From: Pedobacter sp. L105
GTDB lineage: Bacteria; Bacteroidota; Bacteroidia; Sphingobacteriales; Sphingobacteriaceae
Reading direction: 5' to 3'
Length of the DNA stretch: 64,000 bases
Assembly: GCF_009765875.1 (NCBI RefSeq)
Contig: NZ_LMUP01000016.1
Location: forward strand, 66,534-130,533
Shown here: piece after piece, positions 20,862 to 31,530 of the stretch
How positions within the stretch are numbered: position 1 is the first letter of the stretch
How the letters are laid out: each line of letters starts with the position of its first letter
Notes under the pieces: model-generated
Databases searched by the model: none
Told to the model about the DNA's origin: nothing
Seen by the model: the letters and a program-made list of their open reading frames with translations, nothing else
Position numbers and translations under genes: made by a program

Positions 20862-22478
20862 CTAATTCATTTTAATACCAACGCTAGAACCAGGATTGAT
20901 GAGGTTAAAATCTAGAACCACATTATTTCTCTGTACCCAGTTCAGGTATTCCAAAGAAAGCTTTTTAACGATCTCCGGATTTTCCGCAGCGATGTTATTG
21001 GTTTCCCCCCTGTCTTTTTCCAGATCATACAATTCCCACTGGTTTTTTGGGAAAGCAGAAACCAGTTTCCATTTGCCTTCATGGATGGCCCTGTTACCCC
21101 ATAACTCCCAGAATAACGGCTCGCCCCTGTTAATGGCTTCGCCATTAAAAAATAATCCTGTTAAACTTTTGCCCGGTAAAGGATTAATTTTTTTACCGTT
21201 AAAGGTAGCTGGATACTTTGCTCCCGCCAGTTCATAAAAAGTTGGCGCAAGATCAATTAAGTGGGTACTGCCATTGGCAATGGTATTTGCTTTGATTTTA
21301 CTTGGATACCAGGCAATCAGCGGCGCACTCATACCTCCTTCATAAAGTCCTCCTTTGAAAGACCGGAATGGTGAGTTGGAAACAAACGACCAGTTTTTCC
21401 CTTGTGATTCAAAAGAACCAGAAGTACCTACCGGCCCCAGGTTACGGGCAGCATGTTCTTTACCGTGTGCTACATCTTCAGCAGGGGCTCCATTGTCAGA
21501 AATGAAAACAATCATCGTGTTATCATCTTTATGCAGTTCCTTCAACTCCTGAATTAGTTTCCCTACATTCTGGTCCATACGGTCTACCATGGCCGCATAT
21601 ACTTCCATTTTAGCTTTCCACAACTGTTGTTCATCATAGGTTAGGTTATCCCAGTTTGGTACATCCGGATCGCGTTTAGCGATTGTTTGTCCGGGTTCTC
21701 TGATTCCCAATTTCAGCTGTTTTTCCAGACGCTCCTTACGTAAAGAATCCCACCCGATATCATAACGCCCTTTATATTTTGCAATGTCTTCAGGCAAAGC
21801 CTGTAAAGGCCAGTGTGGTGCATTAAAGGCCAGGTAAAGGAAAAATGGCTTTTTAGTTTTATTCTGTTCTTTCAGGTATTCGATGGCATGGTTTCCGATT
21901 TCGTCAGTCATATAATAACTGTCGTCTTTCGGGTGCCAGCGTTTGTTGTTTTCTTCAATGATCACCGGATACTTACGTCCGCCCAGGGGCATATAATTGG
22001 CATTGAAATAATTCGCTGCACCACCGATGATCCCAAAGAATTTATCAAAACCACGCTGATTAGGCCAGCCAATACTATCATTTCCCACATGCCATTTACC
22101 AGACATCAGCGTGCTGTAGCCATCCTGTTTTAATACTTCTGCAAGGGTTACGGATTCTCTATTCAAGTACCCCTGATAAGCAGGCAAACCTAAATTAACA
22201 TCAAAATATCCGATACCTGCTTTATGCTGATCCTGTCCTGTCAGGATAGAAGCACGCGTGGGTGCGCAGATCGCATTGTTGTAAAACTCTTTTAACCGTA
22301 AGCCCTGCGAAGCCAGCAAGTCAAGATTGGGTGTATGGATTTCAGAACCATAAGATCCAAGGTCAGAGTAACCCATATCATCCACCACAATCAGAATGAT
22401 GTTAGGCTTTTTCTGTTGCGCCCTGGTATTCAGCATAAAAAAGCTGATTAGCAAAAGGGAAAGAATTGTTTTTTTCAT
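20862..22478 (-). CDS. Type I sulfatase (arylsulfatase family)
   Basis: Starting from the ATG at 22478, preferred over a codon 21 bp upstream because it opens the signal peptide MKKTILSLLL, the protein has 538 residues. KPNIILIVVDDMGYSDLG supplies the metal-binding Asp pair. CAPTR at residues 71-75 is the Cys-type sulfatase signature, whose Cys is converted to formylglycine, and SGKWHVG is the second conserved block. It is exported and would remove sulfate esters from glycans. The required maturase, an FGE-like protein, is encoded at the other end of the same gene set, with SusC/SusD between. The true substrate (sulfated polysaccharide or aryl ester) cannot be told. Confidence 0.93.
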   Translation of the reverse strand: MKKTILSLLLISFFMLNTRAQQKKPNIILIVVDDMGYSDLGSYGSEIHTPNLDLLASQGLRLKEFYNNAICAPTRASILTGQDQHKAGIGYFDVNLGLPAYQGYLNRESVTLAEVLKQDGYSTLMSGKWHVGNDSIGWPNQRGFDKFFGIIGGAANYFNANYMPLGGRKYPVIIEENNKRWHPKDDSYYMTDEIGNHAIEYLKEQNKTKKPFFLYLAFNAPHWPLQALPEDIAKYKGRYDIGWDSLRKERLEKQLKLGIREPGQTIAKRDPDVPNWDNLTYDEQQLWKAKMEVYAAMVDRMDQNVGKLIQELKELHKDDNTMIVFISDNGAPAEDVAHGKEHAARNLGPVGTSGSFESQGKNWSFVSNSPFRSFKGGLYEGGMSAPLIAWYPSKIKANTIANGSTHLIDLAPTFYELAGAKYPATFNGKKINPLPGKSLTGLFFNGEAINRGEPLFWELWGNRAIHEGKWKLVSAFPKNQWELYDLEKDRGETNNIAAENPEIVKKLSLEYLNWVQRNNVVLDFNLINPGSSVGIKMN

Positions 22479-22517
22479 CGTTTTATGTTTAAAGATCAAT
22501 TGAAGGCTGAATTAGTT

Positions 22518-23975
22518 TTAAGGGGTTATCTTTTTTACAGGTGGGCTAAGCCAGGTATTTTTATCTTTCAGATAAGTTTCTTCAGGTACGTATATTCTAA
22601 GAATAACATTAAAGTTATCTGCTGGTGCAGGCAACCAGTTATTTTCTTTTTCTGCTCCCGGATTTTCATGCTGCAGGTAAATATCCAGCGATCCATCTGT
22701 ATTAAAAATCAGGGGATTTCTATCGCCAATGGCATAACGCTTAATAGGGTTATCAACCAGGTAGCGGTCGCTATCATACATCGTTAAAGACCAGAAGGCC
22801 TTTGCCGGCGGTAATTTTCCTTTATCAAAATGAATCACATAAGCATTTTTACCATCAAGCAGGTTTTTGTCTGCATCTTTAACATAACCTACATAAGTTG
22901 CCTCTTCTGGTGTCAGTGCCCCCAGCCCTTTATAAGCTACCAAAGCACGCAAAAGATAATCGGTTTTATAATCTCCAATTTTGGCCCCTGCTACAGGTTT
23001 TGAACTCTCTGAAGGATGCCCTGTATCAAATTGCCCGAATATACTTTTAGGCAGGTTATTCAATGCTTCTTTTGTCTCCTGATCAAATGCGTCGATATCA
23101 AATTTTCCGCCAGCCTGGATCCCTAATTTGGCAAATTGAGCCAAAACAGGAGCATCTGCTACCAGGGGAGGGTTTTTGACCATCAGCTCATTCAGGTAAT
23201 TAAAGTAGTCTGCCAGTGGTAATGTCTGTATGGCTTTTACAACTGTTAATTGATGATCCTGAATTGCTTTAACAGGTAATGGCGTATGGTAAACGACAGG
23301 ATCAGTCCCTCCTGCTACATTGTTTTTAGCCCAACTGCTCAAAGTAGCTAAGGTAAACTGATCCTGAATTTTGCTGACAAATTTCACCTGATCTTCGGGA
23401 CTGTTTACCTGTATACGGCCAATTACCCAAACCATATCTGTAGGAGATTTTACCTGTTTTAATCCAGAAGGAACAATTCCCTTCCATTTAGGCCCGGTGA
23501 TTAAATATTTCTGCGCCCCGGTTCCCGTATTACGTTTACCAAAAGAGGCAAAAACATTAGTCCATGCATCCATCAGGGGCACCACAAAATAGCGGTCTTT
23601 GGTATCAGGAATAGTTAGTACTACGGCATCCTGCTCTAAATCTAAAAAAGCAGTAGAGTAGTTAGTATCGTTATTAGGCGCAACTACCCAATGGTTTTTA
23701 TCATCAAAAAATTTATGCGCATGTGTAAACACATTGCTTTTCGTTCCGCTAACCTGCCGGGTAAGATCTGTAAATACCAAAGGCAAACCATATATATAAG
23801 CCTCCTGAGCAATTTTAACAACTTCTTCTTTGGAAAGATGAACTTTACTGCTGTCTGTAAGCACGCTTTGCACCGGTAGTATCCATTGTTTTTTAACAGA
23901 GACTGTTGCATTTACAGCTAAGGCAGCAAGTAAATGAATTGATAACACTATGTTTCTTTTAGGATTTATGTTCAT
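22518..23975 (-). CDS. DUF1254/DUF1214 domain protein, exported
   Basis: A 485-residue protein with a probable signal sequence (residues 9-25). HLSKEEVVKIAQEAYIYGLP and APNNDTNYSTAFLDLE are the DUF1254 hallmarks, and KAFWSLTMYDSDRYLVDNP with a C-terminal block is DUF1214. These two-domain proteins are widespread in bacteria, but I know of no firm biochemical role. Here it sits between SusD and the sulfatase on the same strand (39-bp gap to the sulfatase), so it is probably expressed with the glycan locus. It might bind or process a released product, which is inference. Confidence 0.85.
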   Translation of the reverse strand: MNINPKRNIVLSIHLLAALAVNATVSVKKQWILPVQSVLTDSSKVHLSKEEVVKIAQEAYIYGLPLVFTDLTRQVSGTKSNVFTHAHKFFDDKNHWVVAPNNDTNYSTAFLDLEQDAVVLTIPDTKDRYFVVPLMDAWTNVFASFGKRNTGTGAQKYLITGPKWKGIVPSGLKQVKSPTDMVWVIGRIQVNSPEDQVKFVSKIQDQFTLATLSSWAKNNVAGGTDPVVYHTPLPVKAIQDHQLTVVKAIQTLPLADYFNYLNELMVKNPPLVADAPVLAQFAKLGIQAGGKFDIDAFDQETKEALNNLPKSIFGQFDTGHPSESSKPVAGAKIGDYKTDYLLRALVAYKGLGALTPEEATYVGYVKDADKNLLDGKNAYVIHFDKGKLPPAKAFWSLTMYDSDRYLVDNPIKRYAIGDRNPLIFNTDGSLDIYLQHENPGAEKENNWLPAPADNFNVILRIYVPEETYLKDKNTWLSPPVKKITP

Positions 23976-24114: not shown

Positions 24115-25551
24115 TTAATAACCTGTGTTTTGTATTAAACCAGAATTGACACTGATTTCACTTTGAGGGATTGGAAACAGGTAATTTTTTGTACTCACTC
24201 CTGTTTTTGCGGCTACTTTACTTACTGCCTCCACCAAACGTCCTGTTCTTACCAGGTCAAACCAGCGCTGCGCTTCCTGAACAAACTCTTTTCTTCTTTC
24301 CAGGTAAAGTGCATCGCGGAAAGCCGACTGGGTAAGTCCCGCTGTGAGGTCGCCGATATTTGCGCGGTTGCGCACCAAATTGATGGCATTATAAGCATCG
24401 GCAGTTGGTCCCGATGTTTCATTGACCGCCTCTGCATACATCAGCAGTACATCTGCATAACGTAAGATCGGAAAGTTAATTCCACTCTGTGCCGGTGTAC
24501 TCAGCTCCGTAGAATCTACATATTTCCTAAAATAATTGGAGGCAAAAGTATACTTTGTACCTGTTGCAGGATTAGTGAAAGTTTTATAGAAAGTTACGGC
24601 CTTACGTGTATCGCCGGCGGTGAATATATTATACACCCCTGTATCTGCAGGAAGATCGGCAGGAACTTTACCTGCAAATCCTGTAAAGGATGCACCCATC
24701 AAAGTGCTGGTGTTACCCGTGCCGCTATTGGCTTCAAACTGTGCAGAGAATATATGTTCTTTGCCATTTTTTGCAGATTTGTTAAATACATCTGCGTAGT
24801 TGGCAAACAAAGCATATCCATAACCGCCATTCATTACTTCTTTGGCTTTTAAAATTGTGTTTGCCCAATCTTTTTGCGTGAGGTAAACTTTTACCAATAG
24901 TGATTTTGCCGCGCCTGCTGTAGCACGGCCGATATCGGCACCGGTGTAAGTGGCGGGAAGGTTTTCTGCTTCAGTGAGGTCGGCAATGATTTGCTGGTAT
25001 ACCTGGGTAACCGTAGACTGGTTGGTTTTAAGCGAAGTAATATCTACCGAAGTTGCATCATGTAATACAAGTGGCACTGCTCCAAAAAAACGCACCAGGT
25101 TAAAATAATACAATGCACGCAGGAATTTTGCCTCCCGTACTAAACGCAAACGGGTAGTCTGATCAAAGGTCATTGCCGAAATTTTGTCGACCGCAACATT
25201 TGCCCGGTTAATGCCTACATAGGTCTGACGCCAGATAGCCAGTACCCTGTCATTCGAAGCATCATAAGTATCAGCACTTAGTGCACGTACATATGGATTG
25301 ATAGCAGAAGGACCAGCGGCGAGATCGTCTGTAGTCATATCCGTCAGGAAGTTAATGTTCCTCCCGTACATCGGCTGTTCGCCGGCATCATAGATCAGTT
25401 CACTATAAACCGCAGTAACCCCGGCCACTGCATCTGCCTGTGTTTGAAAGGACTGTGCTGCAGTGATTACTGATACGGGATTTTCATTCAATTTATTGCA
25501 GGAAGTAAAAGCTATCGCGATCAGGATTCCTAAAAATATATTCTTTATCAT
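24115..25551 (-). CDS. SusD/RagB family nutrient-binding lipoprotein
   Basis: A 478-residue lipoprotein with lipobox Phe-Thr-Ser-Cys at Cys18. It shows the TPR-like helical SusD core (RLVREAKFLRALYYFNLVRF) and the conserved C-terminal block YLERRKEFVQEAQRWFDLVR followed by KNYLFPIPQSEI. SusD proteins sit on the cell surface as a lid on the SusC barrel and capture oligosaccharides. It follows SusC by 87 bp. The ligand is probably a sulfated glycan, given the sulfatase downstream. Confidence 0.95.
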   Translation of the reverse strand: MIKNIFLGILIAIAFTSCNKLNENPVSVITAAQSFQTQADAVAGVTAVYSELIYDAGEQPMYGRNINFLTDMTTDDLAAGPSAINPYVRALSADTYDASNDRVLAIWRQTYVGINRANVAVDKISAMTFDQTTRLRLVREAKFLRALYYFNLVRFFGAVPLVLHDATSVDITSLKTNQSTVTQVYQQIIADLTEAENLPATYTGADIGRATAGAAKSLLVKVYLTQKDWANTILKAKEVMNGGYGYALFANYADVFNKSAKNGKEHIFSAQFEANSGTGNTSTLMGASFTGFAGKVPADLPADTGVYNIFTAGDTRKAVTFYKTFTNPATGTKYTFASNYFRKYVDSTELSTPAQSGINFPILRYADVLLMYAEAVNETSGPTADAYNAINLVRNRANIGDLTAGLTQSAFRDALYLERRKEFVQEAQRWFDLVRTGRLVEAVSKVAAKTGVSTKNYLFPIPQSEISVNSGLIQNTGY

Positions 25552-25638: not shown

Positions 25639-28600
25639 TTAAAAAGTAAGGCTTAAACCAGCTAAAAAGGTCTTGTAATTTGGATAGGCACCATAGTCAA
25701 TTCCCTGTAAAACGTTACTTTGCTCAAAGCTGCTTACTTCAGGATCATAACCTGTGTATTTAGTCCAGGTGAATAAGTTTTGTGCTGCGATATAAACGCG
25801 TAATTGTTTAGCATGTATTTTGGAAATGCTGCTCTGGTTAAAGGTATAACCTAATGTGAGGCTCTTTAAACGCAGGTAAGATCCATTTTCGATATAACGG
25901 CTGGACATTTGTGCCACAGGTGAACTGCTTGCCCTTGGCGTTACATTACTGGGATTAGACGCAGAATAACTATCCAGCACAGCAGTAGTAGAATTTTGTG
26001 AAAGGTTAGTGATATCCAATTGCTGTTTTAAAGCATTATAGATTTTGCCTCCATAACTTCCCTGTAAGAACACAACCAGATCGAAGTTATTGTAGCCAAA
26101 AGTATTGGTAAAACTGCCAGTAAATTTAGGCTGCGCCGTACCCAGGCTTACTTTATCTTTAGAATTGATCACCCCATCACCGTTGGTATCCACATAACGC
26201 TGATCTCCAACTTTGGTATTTGCTTTTGAATCCAGCGTAGCTGAACTGGCAATTTCTGCCGCTGTTTGGAAAATGCCATCGGTTTTATAACCCCAGAAAG
26301 TGCCTAAAGGTTGTCCTACCACAACATTAACCGGCTGCAGCACACTTAGCGTACCGTTACTAACTGTTGGGAAATAAGAACTTAGAGAACCCAGACTTAA
26401 CACTTTGTTCCTGTTTAAGGAATAGACCAGGGAAGATTTCCAGGTAAATTTAGAACCTTTGATGTTATCTGTGGTGATGCCCAGTTCCAGTCCTTTATTA
26501 GATAAACTACCTATATTTTGAAGGGAAGTAGCAAATCCTGTAGACAACGGAATTGGAACGGACAATAACAGATTATTGGTTTTTTTATAATAAGCATCAA
26601 AAGACAGATTGATCCGGTTATCCAGTAAACCTAAATCTAAACCAGAATCATATTGGTCGGTCTTTTCCCATTTTAAAGCTTCATTTGCCAAACGTGTAGC
26701 AGCAAAACCAGTAACTAAAGTCCCATTAAAATCATAAGTAAACGGACTTAAGGTAGAGAGCGACTGATATTGACCAATCTCCTGGTTCCCGGTAATACCC
26801 GCGCTTAACCTTAATTTAAGATTGCTGATCGCTTTTACATCCTTTAGAAAATCTTCCTGTCCTGCATTCCAGGAGAAACCTGTAGAAGGAAAATATCCCC
26901 ATTTGTTACCTGAACCAAATCTTGAAGAACCATCGGCACGGGCAGAAACGGTCACATTGTATTTATGTTCATAAGAATAGTTGATCCTGGCCAGGTAAGA
27001 ATTTAAAGCCCAGGTGTAGGCGTCTGATGTAGGAGTAATAGTCTGAGAACCACTTTGTAAACTGTTATATGAAGTCAGATCGGTGACAAAATTTTTAGAG
27101 CCTGAGGTAGCTGATTCTTCTTTGGAGAACTGGGTGCTGTAACCTACCAGCACATTAAAAAAGTGCTTATCGTTAAATGACTTGTCGTAGGTAATCGTGT
27201 TTTCATTTAACCAGGTGTTTACGGTTTTATTTCCCACTGCTGCATAACCTAAACTGGTATATCCATTGGCACTATTAGAAGGTGCGTAATAGTTCTGCTT
27301 GGTATTTAACAGATCTGCACCAAAACTTACTTTTGCGGTCAGTCCTGGTATAATTTTATATTCTCCATAAAAATTTCCCAGTGTCCTGGTGATCAGGGTC
27401 TGGTTTTTTACAATTTCCAGATCCTGTATCGGGTTGGAAACTGTAGTAGAATATGGATTGATTGTGTTATAACTTCCATCGGCATTCCTTAAAGCAATAA
27501 CCGGTGCTGTGCTGATGATATTGGTAATTACATTGGGGCTTGTTAATGTATTTCCACCGGTATTGCTGGCTGCACTCAATGAGGTTGAATAACTGCTGCT
27601 TAGGTTTACCCCTACTTTAAATTTCTCAGATACATCATGATCATAGTTGAAGCGCGTGGAATATCTTTTATAATTGGTATTCAATAGGATCCCATCCTGG
27701 TCAAAGTAATTACCGGAAATGGCATATCTTGATTTATCATCGCCACCGGAAATAGAAAGTTCATGGTTTTGAACAGGTGCGGTGCGGAAAGCGGCCGCCT
27801 GCCAGTCGGTACCAGCGCCAAATGCAGCGATTTGTGCAGCCGTATACGAAGGGGCAACTCCGCTAGCTACCTGGATATCATCATGCAATTGCGCCCATTG
27901 GCTGCCGTTTAGTAAGTCAAGTTCTTTGGTGATTTTCTGAAGCCCGTAATAAGCAGAATAGGTTACATTGTTCGTTCCCCGTTTTCCTTTTTTAGTGGTA
28001 ACGATCACTACACCATTTGCACCACGGGAGCCATAGATTGCCGTAGCGGAAGCATCCTTTAAGATTTCTATTGATTCAATATCTGAAGGGTTAATACTGG
28101 ACAATGCATTTACACTTGCCCCGGAACCCACACCTGTAGTGGTAGAGGCATTGTCGTTATAAACAGGAAATCCATCAATTACATATAACGGCTCATTACC
28201 ACCAGTGATGGAGTTTCCACCGCGTATACGGATGCTGGCCGAAGCACCAGGGCTGCCGGAACTTTGCGTTACCTGTACCCCCGGAGCTGATCCGCGCAGC
28301 AGGTTATCTACCGATGAAGTAGCCTGATTTAGATTTTCTTTTGGAACAGAAGACAGGGAACCTGTTACATCGCTTTTACGCTGTGTACCGTAACCTACAA
28401 CTACCACATCGTTCAGCTGACTTACATTTTCTTCCAGACGGATGATCAGTGCACCTCCTGTGGCAATTAATTCCTGTGTTTTATAAGTAACAGACCTGAT
28501 GATCAATGTATAAGGGAACTTTTGACCAGTTACGAAACTGAACCGGCCATCTGAATTGGTGGCTACTTCATGTGTTGTGCCTTTAATAGTGATGTTGGCA

Positions 28601-28764
28601 CCAATGATAGGCTCCTGAGTTTTTGCATCCAGCACCTGACCATTTAGTGTGGAGTTGATTAAGGGTTTGGTTTGAACCTGTGCAGAAGTGTTAAAAGAAA
28701 GTAATAGTGTAACAATAGGCACGAACCATACGTAAAACCGTTTGGTCTTGTAAATTTTTTGCAT
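25639..28764 (-). CDS. SusC/RagA family TonB-linked outer membrane transporter
   Basis: A 1041-residue TonB-dependent transporter. After the signal peptide comes a carboxypeptidase-like domain (about 35-110, LDAKTQEPIIGANITIKG), then the plug with VVVGYGTQRKSDVTGSLS and EPLYVIDGFPV, then the barrel. It has no STN domain, so it is unlikely to signal through an anti-sigma factor. It imports glycan fragments captured by the SusD next door. The 139-bp gap to the FGE gene holds a small hairpin (9-bp arms at 28839-28847 and 28853-28861) that may trim or attenuate the transcript. Confidence 0.95.
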   Translation of the reverse strand: MQKIYKTKRFYVWFVPIVTLLLSFNTSAQVQTKPLINSTLNGQVLDAKTQEPIIGANITIKGTTHEVATNSDGRFSFVTGQKFPYTLIIRSVTYKTQELIATGGALIIRLEENVSQLNDVVVVGYGTQRKSDVTGSLSSVPKENLNQATSSVDNLLRGSAPGVQVTQSSGSPGASASIRIRGGNSITGGNEPLYVIDGFPVYNDNASTTTGVGSGASVNALSSINPSDIESIEILKDASATAIYGSRGANGVVIVTTKKGKRGTNNVTYSAYYGLQKITKELDLLNGSQWAQLHDDIQVASGVAPSYTAAQIAAFGAGTDWQAAAFRTAPVQNHELSISGGDDKSRYAISGNYFDQDGILLNTNYKRYSTRFNYDHDVSEKFKVGVNLSSSYSTSLSAASNTGGNTLTSPNVITNIISTAPVIALRNADGSYNTINPYSTTVSNPIQDLEIVKNQTLITRTLGNFYGEYKIIPGLTAKVSFGADLLNTKQNYYAPSNSANGYTSLGYAAVGNKTVNTWLNENTITYDKSFNDKHFFNVLVGYSTQFSKEESATSGSKNFVTDLTSYNSLQSGSQTITPTSDAYTWALNSYLARINYSYEHKYNVTVSARADGSSRFGSGNKWGYFPSTGFSWNAGQEDFLKDVKAISNLKLRLSAGITGNQEIGQYQSLSTLSPFTYDFNGTLVTGFAATRLANEALKWEKTDQYDSGLDLGLLDNRINLSFDAYYKKTNNLLLSVPIPLSTGFATSLQNIGSLSNKGLELGITTDNIKGSKFTWKSSLVYSLNRNKVLSLGSLSSYFPTVSNGTLSVLQPVNVVVGQPLGTFWGYKTDGIFQTAAEIASSATLDSKANTKVGDQRYVDTNGDGVINSKDKVSLGTAQPKFTGSFTNTFGYNNFDLVVFLQGSYGGKIYNALKQQLDITNLSQNSTTAVLDSYSASNPSNVTPRASSSPVAQMSSRYIENGSYLRLKSLTLGYTFNQSSISKIHAKQLRVYIAAQNLFTWTKYTGYDPEVSSFEQSNVLQGIDYGAYPNYKTFLAGLSLTF

Positions 28765-28903
28765 ACTTTTATAAATGTTTAATTATCAATTGAAACAGGT
28801 ACAACGCCAATTGAACGCCTGTTTCTTGTTTTGAACTGAGGGAATAGTTTATCTATTCCCTTATTTTATTTTTGTTAGCCTGATAAATCTGTTTCCTCCC
28901 GCT

Positions 28904-30037
28904 TTAGTTTTTATTTTCTACACACCTGAAACCCAGGTGTTCCATTCCACTGTCTTCTGTGGTTTTCATTCGTCGTGCCACACGGTATCCGGAGCAATAA
29001 CTGTCATTACATAAAAATGAACCGCCCCGTACTACACGCTTGGAGGCATATGGTTCATCAGGATCATTTGACTTGGCCGGGCCCTGCGGATTGACTACAC
29101 CTTCGGGTTTAGTTATCTGACCATAGTAGCCCTGATCATAATAATCAGCACACCACTCCCAAACATTACCCGCCATATCATATAACTGATATCCGTTTGG
29201 TGCAAATGATTTTGCAGGTGAGGTATAATAGAATTTATCTGTTAATGTATTTTTATAAGGAAAACTTCCCTGCCAGGTATTGGCCTTTGGTGTGCCTTCA
29301 TCTACAGGTTCGTTTCCCCATGGGTAGATTTTATTTTGTAAACCACCGCGTGCAGCATATTCCCATTCGGCTTCTGTTGGCAGACGTTTGCCGGCCCATT
29401 TGGAATAAGCAATGGCATCATCATAAGAAACCTGAACCACAGGATAATTGTCTTTCCCTTCGATATTACTTTTTGGGCCCTGCGGATGTTTCCAATCGGC
29501 TTTTTCTACCCATGTCCACCACTGACTGTAATCATTTAAAGGAACAGCTTCTTTAGAGGGTTTAAATACCAGTGAGGCTGCTACTAATAATGAATCATCT
29601 GGTTTTGGGGTACCTGGAGGAACTTGTTTTTTAAGGTCTTCCCAGTTGGGTTTTCTTTCAGCAGTAGTTATATAACCCGTAGCCTGCACAAATTTTGCAA
29701 ACTGGGCATTGGTCACTTCCGTCTGGTCGATCCAGTAGCCATCAACAGTAACTTTATGTTTTGGATATTCATCGGGCGCTGCCTGCTGGTTATCGCCTCC
29801 CATCATAAAGCTCCCTCCTTCTATCCAAACCATATTCTGATGATCATGATGATCGGCGGTTTTGTTGATTGCTATTGTTTTTGCAGGTTTAAAGCGGGAT
29901 GGAATGTTGGATTCACAGCATATAGGTGTCTTTGCCGCAAAAACAGGTTTTTCTTCCTGGGCATTTGCCAGAGATGGAAGAAAAAAGGTGATGCTAAGTA
30001 AACCAGCTAAAGCTGTATATGTGTCTATTTTTTTCAT
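28904..30037 (-). CDS. Formylglycine-generating enzyme family protein (sulfatase maturase)
   Basis: A 377-residue protein with a signal peptide (ALAGLLSITFFLPSLANAQ), so it acts outside the cytoplasm. MVWIEGGSFMMGG begins the FGE-sulfatase fold. The C-terminal RGGSFLCNDSYCSGYR carries both active cysteines, Cys343 and Cys348, with the same five-residue spacing as Cys336/Cys341 in human SUMF1. Many bacterial relatives lack this pair, so real maturase activity is likely. It would oxidise the CAPTR cysteine of the sulfatase encoded downstream. A CCES motif near residue 39 adds two further cysteines of unknown role. Confidence 0.9.
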   Translation of the reverse strand: MKKIDTYTALAGLLSITFFLPSLANAQEEKPVFAAKTPICCESNIPSRFKPAKTIAINKTADHHDHQNMVWIEGGSFMMGGDNQQAAPDEYPKHKVTVDGYWIDQTEVTNAQFAKFVQATGYITTAERKPNWEDLKKQVPPGTPKPDDSLLVAASLVFKPSKEAVPLNDYSQWWTWVEKADWKHPQGPKSNIEGKDNYPVVQVSYDDAIAYSKWAGKRLPTEAEWEYAARGGLQNKIYPWGNEPVDEGTPKANTWQGSFPYKNTLTDKFYYTSPAKSFAPNGYQLYDMAGNVWEWCADYYDQGYYGQITKPEGVVNPQGPAKSNDPDEPYASKRVVRGGSFLCNDSYCSGYRVARRMKTTEDSGMEHLGFRCVENKN

Positions 30038-30089
30038 TGCTGAAATTCGAATGAACTAACTATAAGTATGGGGGAAAATAAATTGTAAA

Positions 30090-30194
30090 TCAGATCTGTT
30101 GGCCATTAGCTGGCATCATAGTACACAGGCAACAGCTTACTTTTAAACTATCCAGTAAAAATGTAAATTTTTCTGCTGTTATGCCTTGTGCCAT
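30090..30194 (-). CDS. Candidate 34-residue Cys-rich leader ORF ahead of the FGE/SusCD/sulfatase operon
   Basis: Read from the ATG at 30192-30194, the minus strand gives MAQGITAEKFTFLLDS, then LKVSCCLCTMMPANGQQI and TGA. It begins about 45 bp downstream of a consensus TATATTTG -7 element and ends 52 bp before the FGE start, so it would be the first thing translated on the operon mRNA. Three Cys codons (about 30123-30134) fall in four consecutive positions. There is no signal peptide or known domain. The position and Cys cluster fit a leader peptide, or a tiny metal- or thiol-binding protein. No obvious attenuator stem was found after it. I do not recognise the family. Confidence 0.5.
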   Translation of the reverse strand: MAQGITAEKFTFLLDSLKVSCCLCTMMPANGQQI

Positions 30195-30240
30195 AGGTTA
30201 TAAATTGATTTGCTTTGTATTTTATTTGCTACTTATGATG

Positions 30241-30248
30241 CAAATATA
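30241..30248 (-). promoter_or_regulatory. Predicted -7 promoter element (TATATTTG) of the FGE/SusCD operon
   Basis: On the minus strand TATATTTG fits the Bacteroidetes -7 consensus TAnnTTTG exactly and lies just upstream of the Cys-rich ORF. A short palindrome CTAGATCACTAG sits about 20-30 bp further upstream. A clear -33 TTTG is not evident. Confidence 0.55.
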
Positions 30249-30474
30249 GCCGTATAAACCATAATTCCTAGTGATCTAGTAGATTTTAACATTTGTCTTA
30301 ACATATCCGTTAATTTGATAAAAATGGAAATGTAGAGCAGAGTTAACAAAAAGCAGATCAAATCTTTACTTTACCGTATAATAACTAACAGAATCTGAAT
30401 TTTCGATTACTCAAGGTGAATTACATGTACTATCTGGAATATCTGTTTTTTTCTGACCGGTAAGAAAAAAGCTT
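30249..30474. other. Non-coding region between the operon promoter and the sigma-gene terminator
   Basis: No frame of interest was seen on either strand. The sequence is AT-rich and probably contains operator sites for the sulfatase operon, since no other promoter region is available to it. Between the terminator and the sigma gene stop, about 30517-30642, there is likewise nothing that I can name. Confidence 0.4.
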
Positions 30475-30516
30475 AAAAAACAGTTAGGGGATGCCGCATC
30501 CACGCACATCCCCTAA
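30475..30516 (-). terminator. Terminator of the ECF sigma factor gene
   Basis: On the minus strand the arms TTAGGGGATG and CATCCCCTAA (30507-30516 and 30484-30493) pair perfectly and are followed by CTG and six T. It lies about 125 bp after the sigma stop and separates the sigma transcript from the sulfatase operon. Confidence 0.75.
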
Positions 30517-30642
30517 TCTTATTAACTATTATTTACCTAAACTTGCCTGATCAGCGAGCGCTGACGGCAAAATCTTAATTCAATTTATTATACTGCTATA
30601 ACGCTACTTTTTTCATTTTACTCTGCTCTGTTTCAAAAAAAA

Positions 30643-31272
30643 TTAAATTATTTTTTCCAGTAACATCCGGATGCTTTCATGAAAAGCAGGCATGACTAAA
30701 ACACAAGCTAACTCAATTCGCTTAAGGAGCTGATTTCGAATAGCTTTATTAGCTTTGACGATGTGATCGCTAATGGTAGAAGCAGAAACGCCAAGCAGTT
30801 TCCCTACCTCTACATAGGATTTACCATCCTGTTTACAGAGCAAAAATATTTTTTTTCTCTGCGGAGGTAATTGCTCTATGGCTAGCTGCAATTGTCTTTC
30901 CTCCTCTTCAGCTCCGCTGCTTTCCAGTGACTGATCATCTGATGCAGAAAACGCCTGTCGCAAATTTTCCATCACCTGCCTTTCCCGTTTAACCTGCCGA
31001 TAAAAATCCATGGCTTTATTCCTTGCCATTACCTGTAGAAAAGCACGAAAAGATTGCTGGGGCTTGAGTTCTGTTTTCTTCTCCCATATTTTAAGAAATA
31101 CATCCTGAAGAATTTCTTTAGCCAGGTCTTCATCCCTGGTCAGTTTTCGCAAACTGCTGTAAGCTGCTTCACGATGAAGCTTATACAATTGTTCAAAGGC
31201 CCCCGGGTGACCCTTTCTGACATGAATCATCAATTCTGTTTCAGTACTATTTTTTTCTACATTTTTCTCCAT
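30643..31272 (-). CDS. ECF-type RNA polymerase sigma factor
   Basis: A 209-residue sigma-70 family protein. Region 2 covers about residues 20-85 (GAFEQLYKLHREAAYSSLRK, then DLAKEILQDVFLKIWEKK), and region 4 covers about 128-180 (QLPPQRKKIFLLCKQDGKSY and a helix-turn-helix GVSASTISDHI). It has an extra C-terminal hydrophobic tail of about 25 residues (ACVLVMPAFHESIRMLLE) compared with typical FecI-like factors. No FecR-type anti-sigma gene is next to it, so its control is unclear. It is upstream of and co-directional with the sulfatase operon, but separated by a terminator. Confidence 0.92.
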   Translation of the reverse strand: MEKNVEKNSTETELMIHVRKGHPGAFEQLYKLHREAAYSSLRKLTRDEDLAKEILQDVFLKIWEKKTELKPQQSFRAFLQVMARNKAMDFYRQVKRERQVMENLRQAFSASDDQSLESSGAEEEERQLQLAIEQLPPQRKKIFLLCKQDGKSYVEVGKLLGVSASTISDHIVKANKAIRNQLLKRIELACVLVMPAFHESIRMLLEKII

Positions 31273-31530
31273 TCTATTCGTACAGTCTATAGGAATAGTA
31301 TATTTAACTAACTAGAATTCAATGATAAAAAGTTTTTTAGAAATCGACAATAGTGTAGAATCTGATGATTTTAACTTTCCGGTTGAAAAAACGTTTTTGT
31401 AGTTTAAAATCGAATTATTTTTTTTTCAAATAAATTTTCAAAATTGAGCCGGGCTTCTTATCAGACGGTAAGACTTGCAGCGGAACGGCCGGAATAAATA
31501 AAATACGGGCAGGAGCAAATTAAAAATTAT

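Follow-up and report, generated by a model that had tools for sequence, protein, structure and literature searches.

In the classic trp, his and leu attenuators, the operon is headed by a short ORF in which codons for the amino acid under regulation follow one another. According to the summaries given in PMC9094748 and PMC13236596, mycobacterial polycysteine leaderless short ORFs are reported to be cysteine-responsive attenuators of operons (Canestrari et al., 2020). In Flavobacterium psychrophilum, strong clues are reported that operons for amino-acid biosynthesis are attenuated by leader peptides (PMC9723704). Among the literature matches listed, most subscription papers being outside their scope, there is no published cysteine leader at a SusCD/sulfatase operon.

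Here, a short ORF with clustered Cys codons is analysed, which heads a set of sulfatase, FGE and SusCD genes in a 64-kb stretch of DNA (the window). We hypothesise that it belongs, as an atypical case, to a set of leader peptides on Bacteroidota SusCD/sulfatase operons, and that this set is probably cysteine-responsive. On this reading, to which we give a probability of roughly 0.7, the ORF encodes a leader peptide with a regulatory function, which gauges how much charged Cys-tRNA is available and thereby controls the genes FGE-SusC-SusD-DUF1254-sulfatase.

The features of the window are collected in Table 1. The first-pass annotation had proposed the ORF without giving its strand; it exists, on the minus strand, and is the first open frame after the promoter, there being no earlier ATG downstream of TATATTTG. 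The Cys-Cys-Leu-Cys cluster that had been placed near the C-terminal end is present, at codons 21, 22 and 24 of 34, with ten residues following it. The ORF also has the claimed position between a consensus promoter element and the maturase gene, here the gene with the FGE-sulfatase domain, from which its stop codon is separated by 52 nt. The promoter match is the sole TAnnTTTG on the minus strand between 30320 and 30038, and is taken here, from the consensus, to be a Bacteroidota -7 element. A short ORF between the promoter and the first gene is a feature of attenuators that the window has, at the level of sequence. The expected gene set was confirmed downstream, and its five genes would form one operon, with transcription starting at the predicted promoter. 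The best named relatives of the window FGE are from Arcticibacter, Mucilaginibacter and Pedobacter, on which ground the genome is assigned to the Bacteroidota.

Table 1. Coordinates of the leader, the putative control elements and the downstream genes within the window.
Feature	Position	Strand	Remarks
Candidate operator CTACTAGATCACTAG (CTA-N9-TAG)	30268..30282	-	88 nt upstream of leader ATG
TATATTTG, putative Bacteroidota-type -7 promoter element	30241..30248	-	54 nt upstream of leader ATG
Leader ORF MAQGITAEKFTFLLDSLKVSCCLCTMMPANGQQI	30090..30194	-	34 codons + TGA; ATG at 30194, TGA at 30092-30090
Cys-Cys-Leu-Cys codons TGT TGC CTG TGT	30123..30134	-	Cys codons TGT 30134-30132, TGC 30131-30129, TGT 30125-30123
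FGE-sulfatase domain (PF03781) gene	28904..30037	-	first structural gene; 377 aa
Hairpin GGGAATAGATAAACTATTCCC	28840..28860	-	upstream of SusC; hairpin at similar place in several relatives
Second hairpin GAAACAGG...CAATTGGCGTTG...CCTGTTTC	28792..28825	-	just upstream of SusC
SusC-type TonB-dependent receptor	25639..28764	-	1041 aa
SusD-family lipoprotein	24115..25551	-	478 aa
DUF1254/DUF1214 protein	22518..23975	-	485 aa
Sulfatase (PF00884)	20862..22499	-	545 aa

The pattern of the candidate operator, CTA-N9-TAG, has nine matches in the 64-kb window, and its occurrence beside the promoter is therefore unlikely to be due to chance. A set of 45 related leaders was compared with 280 other upstream ORFs, the latter all from the window's own genome. 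Each peptide was counted once in the set of 45, whose members all have CC among the last seven residues and at least 120 nt of upstream sequence. CTA-N9-TAG is found no more than 120 nt upstream in 32 of the 45 leaders, as against 10 of the 280 controls. TAnnTTTG is also found upstream of 32/45 leaders, as against 18/280, and in 27 of these 32 it lies 10-59 nt before the ATG. Across the own genome the combined operator and promoter pattern is not enriched (18 matches, versus 41 for the reversed control), so that its weight rests on position. Repeated CTATA..TATAG-like inverted repeats resembling CTA-N9-TAG are seen in the own genome at L176:15430-15670, upstream of sulfite reductase/sulfate-assimilation genes; no poly-Cys ORF was found before these genes in that region. 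A gene for an ECF-type sigma factor (Sigma70_r2/r4) lies at window positions 30643-31272, on the operon strand and upstream of the operon.

Conservation was analysed at related SusC genes, using 30 loci from a search with the window SusC in 301 genomes of the family, 65 of which matched at the cut-off. Under a strict rule (at most 900 nt upstream, an ORF that starts with ATG, is 8-70 codons long and has a stretch of eight residues holding three Cys, two of them adjacent), leader ORFs are found upstream of 25 of the 30 genes. The five misses include the window SusC, whose ORF precedes FGE instead. Applied to 54 SusC genes elsewhere in the own genome, the same rule finds three ORFs (L215, L222 and L239, the first and last of which look like true leaders); it finds them at 2/30 loci on the reverse strand, and at a mean of 1.2/30 in resampled sequence. 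Most of the related ORFs end in CCC or CCCC, as in the peptides MKAFLHSGSTFYAITGVSSLQLNCCMCCC and MKTFLHPHSGTKYHMQPREMRMCCTCCCC. CCC lies within the last six residues at 24/30 related loci and at 1/54 control genes, while triple runs of any non-Cys residue occur there in at most one of the 30 loci and at most two of the 54 controls. This C-terminal run is thus cysteine-specific.

The first-pass annotation had made conservation of the frame and of its Cys codons in related genomes decisive, and had suggested a search for short SCCLC-like ORFs upstream of FGE and sulfatase operons. The Cys codon cluster is kept across the relatives as a kind, but not as a sequence, the window variant being CCLC. 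The exact frame is not kept in the 144 other genomes of the genus, among which the window peptide has no convincing match: at E values up to 1, matches come from 35/145 genus genomes (own included), and the best non-self match (E 0.036) is taken as chance. The search found Cys-tailed ORFs at related SusC operons but none common at FGE alone. An ORF common to FGE homologues alone was sought under a loose rule (2 Cys, 500 nt) in 80 loci, and rejected as a candidate since there was none. The rest of the peptide is variable: the N-terminal parts differ widely between groups, and some relatives are as short as ten residues. At most two residues follow the cluster in 44 of the 50 leaders compared, versus ten in the window.

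A wider set of 47 SusC loci was assembled by searching 395 genomes of the phylum and by adding further places from the 301-genome family search, every row being kept in the counts. The strict rule finds a leader in 19/47 (L288 has Cys at the start of the ORF), and a relaxed rule in 25/47, versus 1/47 on the reverse strand; the control genes gave 6/54 and 3/54. In the FGE loci set, 5/19 have a Cys-cluster leader. In L275 and some others, there is an extra gene between the leader and SusC. Four homologues (L132, L134, L136, L138) have no strict poly-Cys leader, L136 having a GCMC variant; CTA-N9-TAG is retained in L132, L136 and L138. Leader fractions such as these overstate the number of independent events, because the leaders of related genomes are not independent. 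SusC- and SusD-like genes are present in all of 18 related SusC-SusD loci (L177-L194), 15 of which have a sulfatase-like gene. FA_hydroxylase-like genes also recur in the related loci, and of five proteins of that size that were scanned, 5/5 match PF04116.

A search of the genome for CCC followed by a stop codon gave 94 matches, versus 11 for the reversed control. It was rejected as the sole detector of leaders: 26 of the 30 matches examined have no in-frame ATG, and none of the 30 has an ATG ORF of up to 70 codons with TAnnTTTG within 150 nt. The true leader at C16:57277 belongs to the other 64.

Both strands of 80 FGE loci, from records that are mostly Mucilaginibacter, were scanned for intergenic Cys-cluster ORFs. 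Besides that of the window, there are 25 on the forward strand and 10 on the reverse. TAnnTTTG and CTA-N9-TAG both lie no more than 140 nt upstream in 16/25 forward and 0/10 reverse ORFs. Ten of these loci (L038, L043, L045, L046, L047, L051, L055, L061, L065 and L077) form a group whose peptides begin with MQP; nine of them end in CCCC and one in YCCC, and FGE, SusC and SusD follow in this order in all ten loci. The promoter is 55-59 nt and the operator 89-99 nt upstream of the ATG in this group, compared with 54 and 88 nt in the window. The interval between leader and FGE is occupied by two small ORFs, which look like membrane proteins, and by a gene of about 320 aa, found in the same place in 8/10; its start, as read in L038 and L043, resembles the FA_hydroxylase of the own genome. 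The window order is the MQP order without these middle genes. The ratio pN/pS is 1.10 in the MQP group, and 0.60, 0.31 and 0.49 in three other leader groups. With one group over 1 and three under it, the values would agree with mainly the Cys codons mattering, though they fall short of proof.

Two small ORFs that resemble membrane proteins (MTLNDVSLLGKK-like and MKLEEAKKTR-like) together with a FA_hydroxylase-like gene recur in L043:4568-4937 and in an operon of the own genome on C16 (L175). Similar short ORFs, MKSVILIRLNCCPD and MMTILFYEMNCCLN, are found about 105 nt before the FGE gene in two Pedobacter loci, L044 and L056.

The own genome has further leaders. Upstream of the SusC gene C16:52408-55401 there is MYTEFNVSSSFVSRRFSADFIPAIHCCCCC, followed by two small ORFs and a FA_hydroxylase-like gene, with a PF03601 protein after SusD. 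The ORF upstream of C16:98547-101522 ends in ...GCASCCCCCQ. The ORF upstream of C16:59014-62118 ends in ...SAMSCWCCK and lies behind a SAM riboswitch (RF00162, 80.4 bits), and this leader (L239:600-705, L279:7568-7673) perhaps holds two sulfur amino-acid sensors. Another SAM riboswitch is present in L296, on the strand opposite to SusC.

In a second family (f4), twelve loci of one genus (g29; L255-L266) have two successive Cys-bearing ORFs before SusC. At its C-terminus the first carries CYMCFCC or a variant in 11 loci and CCCC in one. Its end is 127-145 nt downstream of the start of CTA-N9-TAG, and its start codon in several loci looks to be GTG or TTG. The second has the form MK....CCC(K/R) in 7/12, and a two-Cys variant in the other five. 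Directly after it, an identical hairpin of 26 nt, GCCATTTCTGCGGCAACAGAAATGGC, is present in 12/12, the loop of which could pair with the Cys codons. Four more loci of this genus are weaker: L276-L278 have variants of the first leader, and L274 has none.

The coupling of such a leader to the genes below it was sought in the RNA. The earlier observation that no attenuator stem is present holds: no intrinsic-terminator-like site was found at 29500-31500, and the window leader shows no excess of folding over shuffles (z 0.01). The computed accessibility of the FGE start does not change clearly on stalling, being 0.52 in the free RNA, 0.52 when a ribosome occupies Cys21, 0.44 when it occupies Cys24 and 0.51 when it occupies the stop codon. 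The consensus fold of the ten-member MQP group is weak (5 pairs). Alternative structures with a terminator or a start-masking stem were not found in the window, nor was a convincing consensus switch found in the relatives. When the sequence downstream is shuffled for comparison, pairing between it and the Cys codons has a p value of at most 0.05 in 13/50 leaders (0.08 in the window), but five of the 13 represent one hairpin shared within one genus, and the result is a hint only. Given that neither an intrinsic terminator nor a switch fold was found, Rho-dependent termination or translational coupling would be our guess.

Hairpins before SusC are also seen in relatives. A set of related loop motifs, which includes that of the second window hairpin, has a member in the last 220 nt before SusC in 23/30 related genes, as against 2/54 others. 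The loop of the second window hairpin is CAATTGGCGTTG, and another lineage carries about its reverse complement, AACGCCAATCAC, in the loop. Two hairpins before SusC are conserved in six leaders (L113, L114, L115, L117, L119 and L124), in whose consensus fold 2/32 predicted pairs are changed on both sides.

The regulatory role originally suggested for the ORF is supported by the occurrence of Cys-tailed ORFs far above controls, with promoter and operator in the same position, although the window copy is atypical. From these sequences we infer translation of the ORF, cysteine sensing, a response to cysteine and a coupling step, which may work as follows. Transcription of the operon would begin at the TATATTTG promoter, and would probably be governed by a regulator bound at the candidate CTA-N9-TAG operator. 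When cysteine is ample, ribosomes would pass the Cys codons, complete the leader and be released, after which the downstream mRNA would be prematurely ended or poorly translated. When cysteine is scarce, a ribosome would stall at Cys21, Cys22 or Cys24 and the operon would be expressed, allowing organic sulfate to be scavenged under cysteine shortage.

The atypical form of the window copy could also mean that the poly-Cys leader family is real, and that this member is worn or retuned and blind to cysteine, the operon being run by the CTA-N9-TAG regulator alone. The CCLC variant with its ten-residue tail would agree with this, as would the homologues L132, L134, L136 and L138, which have no strict poly-Cys leader and of which all except L134 keep CTA-N9-TAG. 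However, the window ORF still has the first ATG after the promoter and still has three Cys in four codons. In addition, when the 209-nt leader was resampled with a first-order Markov model, an ORF satisfying the strict rule in start codon, length and cysteines turned up in 38 of 5000 sequences (about 0.8 percent). A worn copy is therefore considered unlikely. The same resampling figure bears on the suggestion that the ORF is a chance open frame in which the Cys cluster is coincidental. A short ORF is cheap in a leader of 209 nt, and the peptide is not conserved as a sequence, but Cys-cluster ORFs recur at homologous operons, and coincidence is highly improbable.

Recurrence of Cys clusters near the C-terminus would also be expected if the ORF encoded a functional Cys-rich small protein, for example a metal- or persulfide-binding peptide. 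Against this stand the wide N-terminal differences between groups and the leaders of just ten residues. Moreover, four leader peptides have no NCBIfam match, and the only PHROGs match of the window peptide has an E value of 0.12. A functional small protein is hardly credible on these grounds, and the preferred reading remains that of a leader peptide that senses cysteine.

Taken more broadly, we lean towards a two-layer sulfur-scavenging regulon in Bacteroidota, in which a CTA-N9-TAG regulator and cysteine-codon leaders, at times as a pair or together with a SAM riboswitch, would control operons for TonB-dependent SusCD uptake and sulfatases. SusCD-sulfatase loci are usually read as glycan-induced sugar-utilisation loci. 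If the proposal is true, cysteine starvation, and not sugar, is the signal for part of the annotated polysaccharide-utilisation loci. A cysteine leader would then mark some SusCD-sulfatase loci as sulfur-acquisition systems, and would provide a signature in the sequence for separating sulfur loci from carbon loci across the Bacteroidota. Control by leader peptides would also reach beyond biosynthesis to uptake at the outer membrane.

The locus resembles the classic trp, his and leu attenuators in that a short ORF with a codon run heads the operon, and differs from them in that the window has no terminator-like site or excess fold. With the SAM riboswitch (RF00162), it shares leader control related to sulfur. 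The window leader has no Rfam match up to E 1, RF00162 included, whereas at the paralogous SusC leader of the own genome it stands beside a Cys-rich ORF. The likeness to the mycobacterial polycysteine sORFs, as these are portrayed in the summaries cited above, is that of a short ORF with a cysteine run, seen here as three Cys in four codons in the window and as CCC in 24/30 related loci. The mycobacterial sORFs are described there as leaderless, while the putative -7 element upstream of the window ATG would argue against a leaderless start. Compared with the systems in those summaries, the genes here belong to SusCD/sulfatase loci in Bacteroidota, and are accompanied by a recurring CTA-N9-TAG.
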